Assembly (NCBI GenBank): GCA_024689585.1
Contig: JAILDF010000172.1
Span: 1 to 43,145 of the forward strand
Reading direction: 5' to 3'
Length of the DNA: 43,145 bases
Source of the DNA: Oribacterium sp.
Lineage (GTDB): Bacteria; Bacillota; Clostridia; Lachnospirales; Lachnospiraceae
The position numbers and the translations under genes were made by a program. Shown one piece after another: positions 3,334 through 41,556 of the stretch. Positions within the stretch are counted from its first letter, which is position 1; each line of letters starts with the position of its first letter. The notes under the pieces are model-generated. The model did no database searches. It was not told the origin of the DNA and saw only the letters and a list, made by a program, of their open reading frames with translations.

Positions 3334-3370
3334 AGGATACATACGGGTTCGCCTGTAGGTATCCTTTTTT
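3334..3370 (+). terminator. Rho-independent terminator
   Basis: AGGATAC pairs with GTATCCT around an inner TACGGG/CCTGTA stem, then TTTTTT. It ends the transcript of the small secreted protein gene. Confidence 0.85.
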
Positions 3371-3383
3371 GTCCCCGGTGGAT
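3371..3383. repeat. Family B palindrome remnant (one half-arm)
   Basis: GTCCCCGGTGGAT matches 13 of 13 bases of the right arm of the family B palindrome at 17041. It starts at the base after the preceding terminator's T-run. The left half is absent, so this is read as a decayed copy. Confidence 0.5.
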
Positions 3384-3503
3384 TCACAACAATTAATAAT
3401 CAAGATATTTTTATTTAATCAACTCTTTCATAAGAGTAAGAAAAAAGCTATAGGTTGGGATTTTTTGAAATGATATACTTTTCATACCTGGGAGGAAAAG
3501 TAA

Positions 3504-5312: not shown

Positions 5313-5329
5313 AAAGATGTCTCATTCAG

Positions 5330-5362
5330 GGCAGGTCGGTTTCATCCCGGCCTGCCTTCTTT
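5330..5362 (+). terminator. Rho-independent terminator
   Basis: GGCAGGTCGG pairs with CCGGCCTGCC around a short loop, followed by TTCTTTAA. It lies 18 nt after the stop of the DUF5722-type gene. Confidence 0.8.
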
Positions 5363-5372
5363 AATTCGCAGG

Positions 5373-5406
5373 AAACCCATCGGGGACGGTTCTCGCCGGT
5401 GGGTTT
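5373..5406. repeat. Family B palindrome, hybrid or truncated copy
   Basis: The left half of family B (CGGGGACGGTTCTCGCCGG, 19 nt identical to the copy at 17041) is kept. The right half is replaced, and the ends are a new inverted pair AAACCCA/TGGGTTT. It sits 10 nt after a terminator, like the other family B copies. Confidence 0.6.
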
Positions 5407-5936: not shown

Positions 5937-8038
5937 TGAAGATCATCATCCGTGATGATATCAGAGGGCGTATACGTTTTACTTTAGGTAAAAAGAGATT
6001 TACTGAAAAGCAGGCGGATATGCTCTTATATTATCTGCTTTCACTTGACCAGGTAGAAAAAGCAAAGGTTTACCAGCGTACGGGAAGTGCGGCAGTCACA
6101 TATACGGGAGATAAGCAGACTCTTTTAAAAGAGATACTAAGGTTTAGATTTGAATCCGATGAAATTGCAGCTCTTGTGCCGGAGCATACCGGAAGAGCTC
6201 TTGCAAATGAATATCAGGATCGTATCGTGACAAAAGTGGTTCTGCATTATCTTTTAAATGTGATTCTTCCCAGACCTCTCAGGAACCTTAAAACACTTAT
6301 TCTGTCTGTTAAATATCTTAAAGAAGGCCTCAAATGTCTTTGGGAGAAAAAACTTGAAGTCCCTGTACTGGATGCAACGGCCATAGGAGTATCTATTCTA
6401 CGGAAGGATTTCAAGACTGCCTCCAGTGTCATGTTTCTTCTCGGCATCGGTGACATCCTTGAAGAATGGACTCACAAAAAATCCGTTGAAGATCTTGCCC
6501 GGTCCATGGCCCTTACAGATGAAAAGGTATGGGTTAAGAGCGGTGAGGACGAAGTTCTGGTTCCTGTCAAAAGTGTCAAAGCGGGAACATTGATATGCGT
6601 TCATATGGGCAGACAGATACCTTTGGACGGAGTCGTTGTTGATGGTGAGGCAATGGTCAATCAGGCATCCCTTACCGGAGAGGGCGTTCCTGTTCACAAG
6701 GATGCCGGTGCTTATGTTTACGCCGGAACAGCCATTGAGGAAGGCGACCTCCTTGTCAGAGTTGAAAATGCAAAGGGTACGACAAGATATGAAAAGATCA
6801 TTAAGATGATCGAAGACTCCGAGAAACTGAAAGCAGGACTCGAAGCCAAGGCTTCAAATCTTGCAGACAGACTTGTGCCCTGGAGCTTTGCGGGAACAGG
6901 ATTAACCTATCTTCTTACAGGAAACATCACAAAGGCTATATCAATCCTTATGGTGGATTTCTCCTGTGCACTTAAACTAAGTATGCCCGTGTCTGTCCTC
7001 TCGGCAATGAGAGAAGCCCAGGATCACAACCTGACAGTAAAGGGCGGACGCTATCTTGAAGCAGTGGCCGAGGCGGATACACTTATATTCGATAAGACGG
7101 GAACCCTCACCAAGGCTACACCGACAGTTGCGGATGTCATACCTTTTAACGGTATGGATGAAAAAGAAGTTTTAAGAATCGCAGCCTGCCTCGAAGAGCA
7201 TTACCCCCACAGTATAGCCAATGCAGTTGTGAAAAAGGCAGAAGAAGAGGGACTGGACCACGAAGAAATGCATAAGGAAGTTCAGTATGTGGTGGCTCAT
7301 GGAATAGCTTCGCTTATTGAAGGCAAAAAGGTCGTGATCGGAAGCTCACACTTCGTGTTTGAAGATGAGAAGGTGAAGATACCTGCAAAGGAAAAGAAAA
7401 AGTTCAATTCAATATCTACACAGTACTCACATCTGTACCTTGCCATAGGCGGAAAACTGGCAGCTGTAATATGCATAGAGGATCCCCTCCGTCCGGAAGC
7501 ACCTGAAGTCATCAGAAAACTTCACGAAGCAGGCTTCAGGCATATAGTTATGATGACAGGAGATTCAAAGCACACAGCCGAGAATGTTGCTTCCATCGTT
7601 GGTGTTGACGAGTTTTATGCAGAAGTATTACCGGAGGATAAAGCATCCTTTGTGGAAAAGCAGAAGGCAAACGGACATAAAGTTATCATGGTGGGAGACG
7701 GTATCAATGACTCCCCGGCACTTAGTGCTGCGGATGTAGGCATTGCCATTTCGGAAGGTGCCCAGATTGCAAGAGACATAGCGGATATCACCATCTCAGG
7801 CTCCGACCTTGAAGGATTACTCACACTTAAAGAAATCGCCAATGGCCTCATGAAGAGAGTAAATCACAACTATCACTTCATAATCGACTGGAATCTCGGC
7901 CTCATCGCACTTGGCCTCATGAGCGTTATCCGACCAAGCACCAGTGCCCTGTTCCATAACCTCAGCACCATAGGCATCGGAATGCACAGCCTCACCAATT
8001 TGCTTCCCGAGAAAAAACCGAGAAACAAAAAAAAATAA
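5933..8038 (+). CDS. P1B-type metal-transporting ATPase (CtpC-like)
   Basis: 701 aa membrane pump, likely exporting a transition metal. The first 75 residues look like an HMA-type fold without the CxxC metal site (IIIRDDIRGRIRFTLG). P-type ATPase signatures in order: SLTGEGVP (actuator loop, 247-253), DKTGTLT with the phosphorylated Asp (387-393), EEHYPHS (P1B His-Pro motif), MTGDS, and GDGINDSPAL (hinge). The intramembrane ligand motif is FSCALKLSMP (343-352), with Cys-Ala where most P1B pumps have CPC, SPC or TPC. That argues against a simple copper pump and fits the CtpC-like group reported for Mn/Zn. It overlaps the upstream small membrane protein by 4 nt. Two ATGs are adjacent (5933, 5936); the first is used here. 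Metal specificity is not certain. Confidence 0.88.
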   Translation: MMKIIIRDDIRGRIRFTLGKKRFTEKQADMLLYYLLSLDQVEKAKVYQRTGSAAVTYTGDKQTLLKEILRFRFESDEIAALVPEHTGRALANEYQDRIVTKVVLHYLLNVILPRPLRNLKTLILSVKYLKEGLKCLWEKKLEVPVLDATAIGVSILRKDFKTASSVMFLLGIGDILEEWTHKKSVEDLARSMALTDEKVWVKSGEDEVLVPVKSVKAGTLICVHMGRQIPLDGVVVDGEAMVNQASLTGEGVPVHKDAGAYVYAGTAIEEGDLLVRVENAKGTTRYEKIIKMIEDSEKLKAGLEAKASNLADRLVPWSFAGTGLTYLLTGNITKAISILMVDFSCALKLSMPVSVLSAMREAQDHNLTVKGGRYLEAVAEADTLIFDKTGTLTKATPTVADVIPFNGMDEKEVLRIAACLEEHYPHSIANAVVKKAEEEGLDHEEMHKEVQYVVAHGIASLIEGKKVVIGSSHFVFEDEKVKIPAKEKKKFNSISTQYSHLYLAIGGKLAAVICIEDPLRPEAPEVIRKLHEAGFRHIVMMTGDSKHTAENVASIVGVDEFYAEVLPEDKASFVEKQKANGHKVIMVGDGINDSPALSAADVGIAISEGAQIARDIADITISGSDLEGLLTLKEIANGLMKRVNHNYHFIIDWNLGLIALGLMSVIRPSTSALFHNLSTIGIGMHSLTNLLPEKKPRNKKK

Positions 8039-8063: not shown

Positions 8064-8292
8064 GGAACGAGCGGTCGGGCATCCATTTGAATGCGTTGAG
8101 CTGAGTCGAGAAAAATCAATATCAGACCCCTTAGAGGCTCTTGATCCATTTTCCTTAGCCCCCTCGCCAAGTCTGAGTTTTCATAAAAGTAAACTCAGAC
8201 ATTGGCGAGGGTCTAGAGCCTCTTAGGGGTCTGATATTAGATTTTTCCGACGAAGCGACTCGCATTCAAATGGATGCCCGACCGCTCGTTCC
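8064..8292. repeat. Family A long palindromic repeat, copy 2 (229 bp)
   Basis: Perfect 32 bp outer arms (8064-8095 and 8261-8292) begin GGAACGAGCGGTCGGGCATC. The inner paired blocks (ATATCAGACCCCTTAGAGGCTC against its near complement) and the core TTCCTTAGCCCCCTCGCCAAG match copy 1 in the same orientation. The arm sequence differs from copy 1, yet both arms match each other. It starts 26 nt after the ATPase stop and fills most of the 364 nt spacer. Confidence 0.9.
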
Positions 8293-8402: not shown

Positions 8403-9674
8403 ATGGGACTTGTGCGTGTTGCTATGGGAGCTCTGAATACAGTTCTCGCCGATCAGTGGCGTGAATACTTCTACTGCGATTCCTTAAGCGAAAATGTGCT
8501 TATGCAGAAGGGCTTACCACGTAAGCAAAAGAACAGCCAGAACACAAAGAACTCTGAGAACCTGATTTCAAACGGATCTGTTGTAGCTGTTAATGAGGGA
8601 CAGTGTATGATCATCGTTGACAACGGTGCCATCGTTGAAGTCAGTGCTGAACCCGGACAGTACGTGTTCGATTCATCAACAGAGCCGTCAATCTTCTACG
8701 GCGGACTTGGAAAGGGTATCGTTGATTCCTTTAACCAGTGGAAGAAGCGTGTAGGCTTCGGTGGAGATACAGCAACAGATCAGAGAGTATATTTCTTCAA
8801 CACAAAGGACATTATGGGCAATAAATACGGAACACAGAATCCGATCCCATTCCGTCTTATTGACAGAAATATCAATCTTGATGTTGAATTTGGTGTACGC
8901 TGTCATGGTGAATACAGCTACAGACTTGTAGATCCTATTCTTTTCTACAAGAAGGTTTGCGGTAATGTAACTGAAGAGTTCACTCGTGACCGTATCGACA
9001 GCCAGCTTAAGTCAGAGCTTCTTACAGCACTTCAGCCGGCATTTGCAGATATTTCAGCAAAGGGAATCCGTTATTCCGAGTTACCTGCACACGCTGATGA
9101 TATCGCAGAGGCACTTAACAAGCACCTTACAGAAACCTGGGGCAAGAACTACGGCGTAGAGATCGCTGCCTTCGGATTAAGCTCTGCTACTATCTCTGAG
9201 GCAGATGCAGAGAAGATCCAGACACTCCAGCTCAATGCTTCCCTTCGTGATCCCGGAATGGCCGGTGCTACACTTGCGGCAGCTCAGGCTCAGGCTATGA
9301 AGGACGCTGCAAACAATCAGAGTGCAGGACCTATGATGGCATTTGCCGGTCTTAATATGGCTAATATGGCCGGCGGAATGAATACCGGCAACCTTTACAA
9401 CATGGCTGCTCAACAGCAGCAGATGGCTCAGCAGGCTCAGCCACAGATGCAGCAGCCGGGAGCACCTGTAGCAGGAGTTGTAGCCGGCGGACCGGCTGAG
9501 GCTCCAAAGATGCAGGCAGGCAGCTGGACATGCGAGTGCGGAAGTGAGAATAACGGTAACTTCTGTACAAATTGCGGAAAGCCAAAGCCACAGCCAAAGA
9601 GCTGGTTCTGTCCACAGTGCGGAATTGAAAACACAGGAAACTTCTGCACAAACTGCGGAACAAAGAAACCATAA
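8403..9674 (+). CDS. SPFH domain protein with C-terminal double zinc ribbon
   Basis: 423 aa. Residues from about 20 to 290 match the SPFH/band 7 type often annotated as virion core protein or YdjI-like: SNGSVVAVNEGQCMIIVDNGAIVEVSAEPGQYVFD, then FNTKDIMGNKYGTQNPIPFRLID and an alpha-helical region ending near AQAQAMKDAA. A low-complexity Met/Gln/Ala/Gly linker follows (MAAQQQQMAQQAQPQMQQPG). The last 50 residues hold two four-cysteine zinc ribbons, CECGSENNGNFCTNCG and CPQCGIENTGNFCTNCG, close repeats of each other. There is no membrane helix, so membrane contact, if any, would be peripheral. GAGGAGG sets the start. It is a single-gene unit with its own promoter and terminator. Function of this bacterial group is unclear; membrane-stress scaffolding is an inference from band 7 relatives. 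Confidence 0.87.
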   Translation: MGLVRVAMGALNTVLADQWREYFYCDSLSENVLMQKGLPRKQKNSQNTKNSENLISNGSVVAVNEGQCMIIVDNGAIVEVSAEPGQYVFDSSTEPSIFYGGLGKGIVDSFNQWKKRVGFGGDTATDQRVYFFNTKDIMGNKYGTQNPIPFRLIDRNINLDVEFGVRCHGEYSYRLVDPILFYKKVCGNVTEEFTRDRIDSQLKSELLTALQPAFADISAKGIRYSELPAHADDIAEALNKHLTETWGKNYGVEIAAFGLSSATISEADAEKIQTLQLNASLRDPGMAGATLAAAQAQAMKDAANNQSAGPMMAFAGLNMANMAGGMNTGNLYNMAAQQQQMAQQAQPQMQQPGAPVAGVVAGGPAEAPKMQAGSWTCECGSENNGNFCTNCGKPKPQPKSWFCPQCGIENTGNFCTNCGTKKP

Positions 9675-9692
9675 GATATGAATTGTTGATCC

Positions 9693-9729
9693 AAACCGGA
9701 CTCTTGAGGAAACTCAGGGTCCGGTTTTT
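9693..9729 (+). terminator. Rho-independent terminator after SPFH gene
   Basis: AACCGGAC pairs with GTCCGGTT around an inner CTTGAG/CTCAGG stem, followed by a T-run. A family B palindrome starts 2 nt later. Confidence 0.85.
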
Positions 9730-9731
9730 AA

Positions 9732-9777
9732 ATCCACCGGGGCCGGTTCTCGCCGGCGAGAACCGGCCCCGGTGGAT
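9732..9777. repeat. Family B palindrome (46 bp, perfect)
   Basis: A perfect palindrome centred on CGCCGGCG with ends ATCCACC/GGTGGAT. Compared with the copies at 17041 and 26566, one arm base has changed (GGGGCCGG for GGGGACGG) and the partner arm has changed to match, so pairing is kept. Confidence 0.9.
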
Positions 9778-9782
9778 AAATA

Positions 9783-9824
9783 AAAGAGAGAGTCATCCCT
9801 CAAAAAAGGAATAACTCTCTCTTT
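9783..9824 (-). terminator. Terminator of tRNA-Arg, probably bidirectional
   Basis: AGAGAGAGT pairs with ACTCTCTCT, with an A-rich side on the plus strand that becomes a T-rich end on the minus strand (TCTTTTATTTA). It lies directly downstream of the tRNA on the minus strand. Confidence 0.65.
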
Positions 9825-16995: not shown

Positions 16996-17035
16996 AATAT
17001 CAGTCGGAGAAAAGTTTCTCTGGCTGATATTTTTG
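16996..17035 (+). terminator. Rho-independent terminator after serA
   Basis: AATATCAG pairs with CTGATATT, continued by GGAGAAA/TTTCTC, then a TTTTTG end. Confidence 0.85.
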
Positions 17036-17040
17036 TGTAG

Positions 17041-17088
17041 TATCCACCGGGGACGGTTCTCGCCGGCGAGAACCGTCCCCGGTGGATA
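17041..17088. repeat. Family B palindrome (48 bp, perfect)
   Basis: Perfect palindrome with ends TATCCACC/GGTGGATA and centre CGCCGGCG, starting 5 nt after the serA terminator. Confidence 0.9.
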
Positions 17089-25001: not shown

Positions 25002-25039
25002 AGCGGTCGGGCATCCATTTAAATGGATGCCCGACCGCT
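25002..25039. repeat. Family A minimal copy (arms only, 38 bp perfect palindrome)
   Basis: AGCGGTCGGGCATCCATTT and its exact complement meet with no interior. The 19 nt arm is identical to the outer arm of the 229 bp copy at 8064. It lies 11 nt after a stop codon, like the full copies. It is read as a copy that lost its core. Confidence 0.85.
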
Positions 25040-26516: not shown

Positions 26517-26526
26517 TGATAAATTT

Positions 26527-26559
26527 AAGGACGGTTCGCAATGAACCGTCCTTATTTTT
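26527..26559 (+). terminator. Rho-independent terminator after the aminotransferase gene
   Basis: AAGGACGGTT pairs with AACCGTCCTT, then ATTTTTG. The stem GGACGGTTC is also part of the family B palindrome that follows 6 nt later. Confidence 0.9.
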
Positions 26560-26565
26560 GATTTG

Positions 26566-26613
26566 ATCCACCGGGGGACGGTTCTCGCCGGCGAGAACCG
26601 TCCCCCGGTGGAT
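26566..26613. repeat. Family B palindrome (48 bp, perfect)
   Basis: Same design as the 17041 copy with one extra G-C pair in the arms (CCGGGGGACGG), present symmetrically on both sides. It starts 6 nt after a terminator and ends in a T-run. Confidence 0.9.
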
Positions 26614-34751: not shown

Positions 34752-34830
34752 TTAAAACTTACGCCTGAGTCAGTGGGCATCCTTTTTATAACGGATAGCT
34801 TTGGCGGAAAAATCAAAATCTGACTCCTAC

Positions 34831-35129
34831 GAGGCTGTGGGCATCCTTTTAAAATCGAGGCGCCTTGGCAGAAAATCTAAAACAGACCCCCTAAGAACCA
34901 CTAGGCCCTCGCCAAAGAAAGAATCCTATCGGATTCTTTTGAACCGCTCAAAGCCGCGCGGCTCCCAGGATTAAAAAACAAATCCTGGGCAGAAATGTCA
35001 GATATTTTCTTTATGAAAAATCTGACTTGGCGAGGGGGCTAAGGAAAATGGGACCAAGTGGTTCTAAGGGGGTCTGTTTTGATTTTTCAAGCCTCGGCTT
35101 TACGATTTTAAAAGGATGCCCACAGCCTC
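34831..35129. repeat. Family A repeat, inner nested copy, carrying a family C insert
   Basis: Arms GAGGCTGTGGGCATCCTTTT (34831-34857) and 35103-35129 are perfect over 27 bp. The core runs in the opposite orientation to copies 1 and 2: CTTGGCGAGGGGGCTAAGG is the complement of their CCTTAGCCCCCTCGCCAAG. Relative to copy 1 an extra block of about 75 bp (34916-34992) interrupts the core. Confidence 0.88.
34917..34988 (-). repeat. Family C repeat, copy 2, inserted in a family A core
   Basis: On the minus strand this block aligns with 9962-10032 (about 54 of 71 positions, including GGGAGCCGCGCG). It contains two hairpins, CCCAGGATT/AATCCTGGG and AAGAATCC/GGATTCTT, that the other copy lacks or has only in part. 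Confidence 0.65.
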
Positions 35130-35222
35130 TAAGAAGTCAGAGTTTGATTTTTCTAGTTTAATTTTACGAAATAAAAAGGATGCCCACTGACTCAGGCTGA
35201 TTTTGATTATGATTTAAATGTT

Positions 35223-41502: not shown

Positions 41503-41505
41503 ATC

Positions 41506-41543
41506 ATAGGGGAAGGTTCCCGAAGTCGGGAATCTTCCCCTAT
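41506..41543. terminator. Palindromic hairpin after argH
   Basis: ATAGGGGAAG-N-TTCCCGA pairs with TCGGGAA-N-CTTCCCCTAT, but no T-run follows. It resembles family B in size and position but not in sequence. Confidence 0.5.
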
Positions 41544-41556
41544 AATGCATTAACGA

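Follow-up and report, generated by a model that had tools for sequence, protein, structure and literature searches.

Repeats that are short, palindromic, intergenic, high in copy number and lineage-specific are known as REPs, BIMEs and REPINs; they lie near gene 3′ ends and are linked to RAYT transposases, whose genes sit between two copies (PMC2817692; PMC3116915). In published work, REPs stand some 20 bp or less from the 3′ ends of genes (PMC3733652). The TIRYT transposases and their TIRtrons (Di Nocera et al. 2013, PMC3733652) are Y1 HUH transposases with a C-terminal helix-turn-helix and with flanking inverted repeats that carry a GGGG-A/T-C/G tag, and some TIRYT repeats can pair with themselves and make up families of moderate abundance (PMC3733652). 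TIRYTs/TIRtrons (PMC3733652) are probably the same as TnpA-REP subclass 2.1 (PMC6006769), for whose genes no REP-like repeats have been reported nearby (PMC6006769). A further type, the CGTC-tagged REPs, often forms HH dimers, carries an unpaired tag and has no associated transposase (PMC3733652).

Here, we describe a palindromic repeat family (family B) found in a 43,145-nt stretch of Oribacterium DNA (the window). We put the probability at about 0.7 that it consists of REP-like non-autonomous repeats made from the end sequence (the GGGGACGGTTC tag) of a RAYT/TIRYT-type Y1 HUH transposase. Family B shares with REPs, BIMEs and REPINs all the features listed above, including a RAYT gene between two copies (canonical flanking copies are inverted, and a perfect palindrome has no orientation), and agrees with the published REP placement at gene 3′ ends, but it departs from the canonical forms in two respects. 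The unpaired GT[AG]G that stands 5′ of the hairpin foot in a canonical REP is absent, GTGG occurring only in paired form at the 3′ side; and a REPIN joins two inverted REPs through a variable spacer, whereas perfect family B copies are abutting halves with zero spacer. It is possible that family B is itself an inverted dimer, since monomer forms exist (at 5373 in the window and at L095:12788). The letters of the CGTC tag are present as well (one family B arm carries CCGTCCCC), but they sit inside the stem. The family B tag, GGGGACGG, resembles the TIRYT consensus in the literature, GGGGWSAS, without matching it exactly, and in contrast to subclass 2.1 genes we find about 95 dispersed palindromes in one Lachnospiraceae genome. 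We found no paper on the GGGGACGGTTCT repeat, the sole text match being unrelated; the palindrome family itself is apparently undescribed, although the kind of element is known.

The window holds three perfect palindromes without spacer, one of 46 bp and two of 48 bp, with the ends 5′ ATCCACC...GGTGGAT 3′ (Table 1). Their 20-bp core, CGGTTCTCGCCGGCGAGAAC, occurs at three places, against 0 expected in shuffled sequence. The half copy at 3371 (GTCCCCGGTGGAT) and the hybrid copy at 5373 (AAACCCATCGGGGACGGTTCTCGCCGGTGGGTTT) are also real, and a possible sixth, degenerate relative begins 3 nt past a stop codon with no terminator in between. The symmetric arm differences of the original prediction proved correct: the two arms at 9732 carry GGGGCCGG/CCGGCCCC, and a G/C pair has been added at 26566. 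Equally, an independent scan of the + strand places each of the five named copies after a terminator, with gaps of 0, 14, 2, 6 and 6 nt; the range of 1 to 11 nt given earlier hinges on where the T-tract is cut. The palindrome at 9732 is flanked by two convergent terminators, the second on the − strand at 9782 to 9821. The terminator preceding the copy at 26566 has the same letters in its stem as the palindrome arm (GGACGGTTC/GAACCGTCC) and may derive from an old palindrome copy. An Rfam search of the window returned only a tRNA.

Table 1. Family B copies and the terminators that precede them in the window.
Feature	Position	Strand	Basis or remark
Intrinsic terminator before half copy	3334–3370	+	Terminator scan, dG −16.5
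Family B half copy (GTCCCCGGTGGATT), remnant of full element	3371–3384		Full palindrome at the orthologous site of NK2B42
Intrinsic terminator before hybrid copy	5328–5358	+	Terminator scan, dG −21.2
Hybrid copy, monomer form	5373–5406		Stem AAACCCA.C / GGTGGGTTT around GGGGACGGTTCTCGCC; hairpin when folded
Intrinsic terminator before 9732 copy	9694–9729	+	Terminator scan, dG −21.9
Family B perfect palindrome	9732–9777		23-bp arms; symmetric A/T to C/G variant
Intrinsic terminator before 17041 copy	16997–17034	+	Terminator scan, dG −19.8
Family B perfect palindrome	17041–17088		24-bp arms; fold −45.7 kcal/mol
Intrinsic terminator before 26566 copy	26526–26559	+	Stem contains GGACGGTTC/GAACCGTCC; conserved in KHPX15 and NK2B42
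Family B perfect palindrome	26566–26613		24-bp arms, extra G/C pair
Possible degenerate relative (sixth)	41503–41546		8 mismatches to core

When up to 3 mismatches are allowed, the 26-bp core is found 95 times in the whole genome from which the window comes (genus Oribacterium; 2.7 Mb in 317 contigs, 77% complete); a reversed control pattern is found nowhere in it. A 30-bp pattern gave 92 matches in this genome, 81 in Oribacterium sp. NK2B42 and 49 in Oribacterium sp. KHPX15, while among the 41 genomes compared the repeat was absent from the 14 other congeners and from the 24 genomes outside the genus. Apart from NK2B42 and KHPX15, the only genomes of the GTDB species collection with the exact 30-bp palindrome were two Lachnospiraceae MAGs. 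The distribution within Oribacterium is patchy.

The link to a transposase comes from NK2B42, where a 249-amino-acid Y1 HUH protein (C1:192976–193722) is encoded between two perfect palindromes, the nearer of which starts about 8 nt past its stop codon. The protein matches PF01797 (E 2e-16), contains the motif NHVHLLLH and hits the NCBIfam model for REP-associated tyrosine transposases with an E value of 1e-14 that lies under the model's cut-off; its C-terminus gives weak, below-cut-off matches to the helix-turn-helix families HTH_3 and HTH_23, and a PDB sequence search with the protein returned no match at 0.001. This linkage involves one gene in one genome, and the flanking could partly reflect local copy density, the stretch being already rich in copies. 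A broader signal is provided by homologues of the gene across the order: 19 of 26 loci, and 0 of 21 controls, have an inverted GGGGAC[GA][GT] no more than 500 nt away (upstream + 19 and downstream − 19 vs upstream − 6 and downstream + 4). The tags found in inverted orientation at these relatives are GGGGACGG, the tag of family B, GGGGACAG or GGGGACGT, and some of the loci hold tag-based palindromes of their own (AACAAAATAGGGACGGTTCTAATCTACAAATTAGAACCGTCCCTATTTTGTT at L277 and a 67-nt one at L265). One high-copy family of palindromes from Lachnospiraceae is thereby tied to the little-studied TIRYT or subclass 2.1 RAYTs, and NK2B42 offers a named isolate that holds the gene and the repeats together.

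The repeat is present in three genomes, and the RAYT was found in one of them. At the homologous locus of the window's genome and of KHPX15 there is no RAYT, only one degenerate solo element by the same right flank, and a cognate RAYT was found neither in the window's genome (77% complete) nor in KHPX15 (98% complete, 49 copies). Other candidates were considered and set aside. An IS200 tnpA (C160) with its TnpB lies in a locus with a single mixed palindrome copy, away from the gene; contig C138 of the window's genome ends in a RAYT-like gene that has a different repeat, GGGGACGGAGTC, at its flanks; and the RAYTs of G001, G008, KHPX15 and NK2B42 contigs C10 and C66 have no GGGGACGG nearby. In the window's genome, the RAYT-like gene cut by a contig end (L018, 1028–1110) lies beside GGGGACGGAGTCA repeats, a sister repeat type.

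Several features of the NK2B42 RAYT locus (L155, 5500–9700) deserve mention. Relative to C43 of the window's genome and C23 of KHPX15, the segment that encodes DNA-alkylation-repair-like and lipoprotein-like products has been inverted between palindromes. Next to the RAYT lies a cysteine-desulfurase-like gene without its 5′ end. NK2B42 further yields about 30 Y1 transposase hits, many of them cut by contig ends, which represent a high-copy IS200/IS605-type element that breaks the assembly.

Most copies are common to the three Oribacterium species. Among comparable sites of the window's genome and its sister species, 21 are shared and 5 were called absent. Of these five, one proved to be a false copy and one corresponds to the half copy left at 3371. 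The 17041 palindrome is identical in NK2B42 and has a 13-nt apex deletion in KHPX15; in outgroup congeners, the intergenic region does not align. The element at 3371 is a full palindrome in NK2B42 and a remnant in the window; KHPX15 has no element there but an intact terminator. At 5373, a larger compound array in NK2B42 corresponds to the short form in the window, and KHPX15 again has only the terminator. These two comparisons indicate that the half and hybrid copies represent one and the same element after deletion or expansion, and that terminators can exist without the palindrome. In this comparison of occupied and empty terminators, two stand empty in KHPX15; at 9732, terminator and palindrome are jointly absent from both NK2B42 and KHPX15. 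None of the compared sites was a clean empty site that would fix the exact insertion boundaries, and at these same sites no target-site duplication, as expected of a MITE of a DDE transposon, was seen. At other shared palindromes (L044:4782 vs L161; L057 vs L198; L048:6975 vs L215/L201), the neighboring hairpins, terminators included, have given way in the sister species to hairpins of unrelated sequence, the outer flanks being conserved.

Orthologous sites in three species whose arms change together amount to a natural experiment on how palindromes stay perfect. The inner 13 bp are strongly conserved; farther out, at positions 14 to 24, a copy's own arms agree in 619 of 748 cells in the window's genome, compared with 482 when the right arms are permuted (maximum 523 in 2,000 permutations), and the agreement stops near position 26. 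The 26566 orthologues exist in three different versions in the three species, each of them paired. Both arms carry an 11-nt insertion in L047:2553 vs L209 and GGGAC/GTCCC in L044:4782 vs L161, and L048:5602 vs L201 shows paired substitutions. At L044:5941, a cluster of changes in one arm makes that arm match the other, and one-sided arm changes occur at other shared sites. While single pairs could be explained by stepwise compensation, the symmetric multi-base insertions point to one arm having been copied from the other, as described for template switching during replication (PMC8794818). The joint changes fit a hairpin-templated correction, a mechanism like that of quasipalindromes, in which a single event rewrites one arm to perfect complementarity, multi-base differences included (PMC8794818, PMC7202029); the quasipalindrome process has been measured, whereas ours is deduced from dispersed repeats at orthologous sites. 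Tentatively, and with somewhat less than even confidence, we propose that family B palindromes are self-correcting, an arm being rewritten from its partner, with the element fixed in place on the chromosome, in single events that include the nested symmetric 5- and 11-nt insertions, so that each locus acquires a private, always near-perfect palindrome; such an insertion might be one hairpin that entered another at its apex, perhaps through the action of the RAYT.

The symmetric substitutions could also have arisen through compensatory selection on a functional hairpin, which leads to the alternative that survives best, namely that family B is a selected RNA element whose transcript hairpin serves as a back-up terminator, readthrough barrier or 3′-end stabilizer, with selection maintaining both pairing and location. 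REPs of other bacteria hold such roles (PMC3733652, PMC6006769), the hairpins are very stable (−46 kcal/mol), the arm changes are compensatory and the copies are placed at gene 3′ ends. We assessed this placement in 1.05 Mb of the window's genome and 0.35 Mb of NK2B42, in stretches picked largely for containing copies, which leaves a same-region null unaffected; genes were called with a home-made dicodon model (86% coding) and terminators with a home-made hairpin-plus-T scan that ignored the palindromes. In the window's genome, 65 of 66 placeable copies are intergenic and one is genic, six more lying at contig edges. Distances to the stop codon are bimodal, at ~2 to 27 nt with no terminator between and at ~43 to 93 nt with a terminator between, as would result if copies favored the ends of transcription units, or survived there, and terminator hairpins were spared. 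Yet 9 of the 65 copies lie between divergent promoters (36 are co-directional and 20 convergent), whole loci in KHPX15 and NK2B42 lack the palindrome, and stepwise compensation could produce symmetric insertions of 5 and 11 nt only with difficulty. An intrinsic terminator, moreover, is a hairpin followed by a T-run, whereas family B as a rule has none: the T fraction past the palindromes is 0.32 to 0.34 in the sense direction against 0.30 in controls, with no enrichment of T-runs, and within the window a T7 follows only the palindrome at 26566. The family is therefore not a set of intrinsic terminators, and the readthrough-stopping role suggested earlier finds no support in these T contents. 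We accordingly regard a selected RNA element as unlikely.

Slightly less probable still, and already largely refuted, is that family B is a terminator-targeted element whose inserting enzyme recognizes the terminator hairpin or T-run and inserts just downstream of it. The original prediction that copies always lie just after a terminator holds for the five named window copies, all five of which do so, but not genome-wide. In the window's genome, 14, 20 and 29 of the 65 copies lie within 12, 20 and 40 nt after a called terminator, compared with 6.3, 9.6 and 14.5% of points drawn at random from the same intergenic regions (p 4e-5, 2e-6 and 5e-9), a threefold excess at 20 nt; nevertheless, for more than half of the copies there is no terminator close by. 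NK2B42 follows the same trend more weakly, with 3, 6 and 10 of 37 copies at these distances. The excess is real, and the two KHPX15 terminators that stand without an element also suit targeting, but it shrinks once gene 3′ ends are controlled for. This test used only ends with a copy within 130 nt; each end provided its own null, and the interiors of terminators were left out. In it, 21 copies followed a terminator at 20 nt or less, where 14.5 were expected (p 0.03; for NK2B42 alone, 5 vs 3.9, not significant), whereas 40 lay within 30 nt of a stop codon without a terminator against 21 expected (p 2e-7). This greater enrichment after bare stop codons, the copies between divergent genes and copy-to-terminator distances scattered over 1 to 36 nt without a fixed register all speak against target choice by hairpin or T-run, and copies without any terminator link, which were named beforehand as the finding that would count against the idea, are among those that the genome-wide search returned. 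Terminators are often adjacent to copies but are probably not the attractant, and such adjacency can arise merely from where insertions survive.

A family of protein-binding sites (e.g., for a nucleoid protein or a regulator with its operator) that was amplified by recombination without a transposase would account for the perfect dyad and the conserved inner 13 bp, yet it is highly improbable given the patchy occurrence within one genus, the tag shared with RAYT ends across the order and the existence of compound and half copies. That the palindromes are an artefact of a fragmented metagenome-assembled genome, with its 317 contigs and several copies at contig ends, can be set aside almost completely, as two separately assembled genomes carry the same elements at the same sites.

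Under the RAYT/TIRYT reading, then, copies would have spread in an ancestor of the three Oribacterium species through a RAYT that bound single-stranded DNA at the hairpin ends, as the one linked gene suggests. Selection may have purged insertions from genes, promoters and terminator hairpins, leaving copies just past gene 3′ ends, directly after the stop codon or the terminator, where they are now distributed. Most copies are today inherited rather than moving: they occupy the same sites in sister species, and the RAYT was found in one of three genomes. Their arms would be kept complementary by rewriting of an altered arm from the other during replication, and hairpin template switching of this kind could yield the symmetric changes, symmetric multi-base insertions and apex deletions that we observe.

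Family B is not the only repeat in these genomes. A second family, with the ends GAGCGGTCGGGCATCCATTT...AAATGGATGCCCGACCGCTC, occupies positions 947–1171, 8064–8287 and 25002–25039 of the window, the last in a short palindrome form, and has dozens of partial copies in NK2B42 and KHPX15. At positions 34767–34882 and 35099–35193 of the window, related repeats form two pairs in which GGATGCCCAC is oppositely oriented. A palindrome of about 110 nt (CAGTTCAGTCGGTGG...GGGGGACGGGGTTGGTGGTCCATTTT...) with GGGGACGG inside it occurs at L048 (about 6990–7100), L161 and L218 and probably represents a second RAYT-type family. Finally, half units of family B form a tandem array with a period of about 19 nt (GGGACGGTTCTCATCTGGA) at L078 (about 8480–8670).
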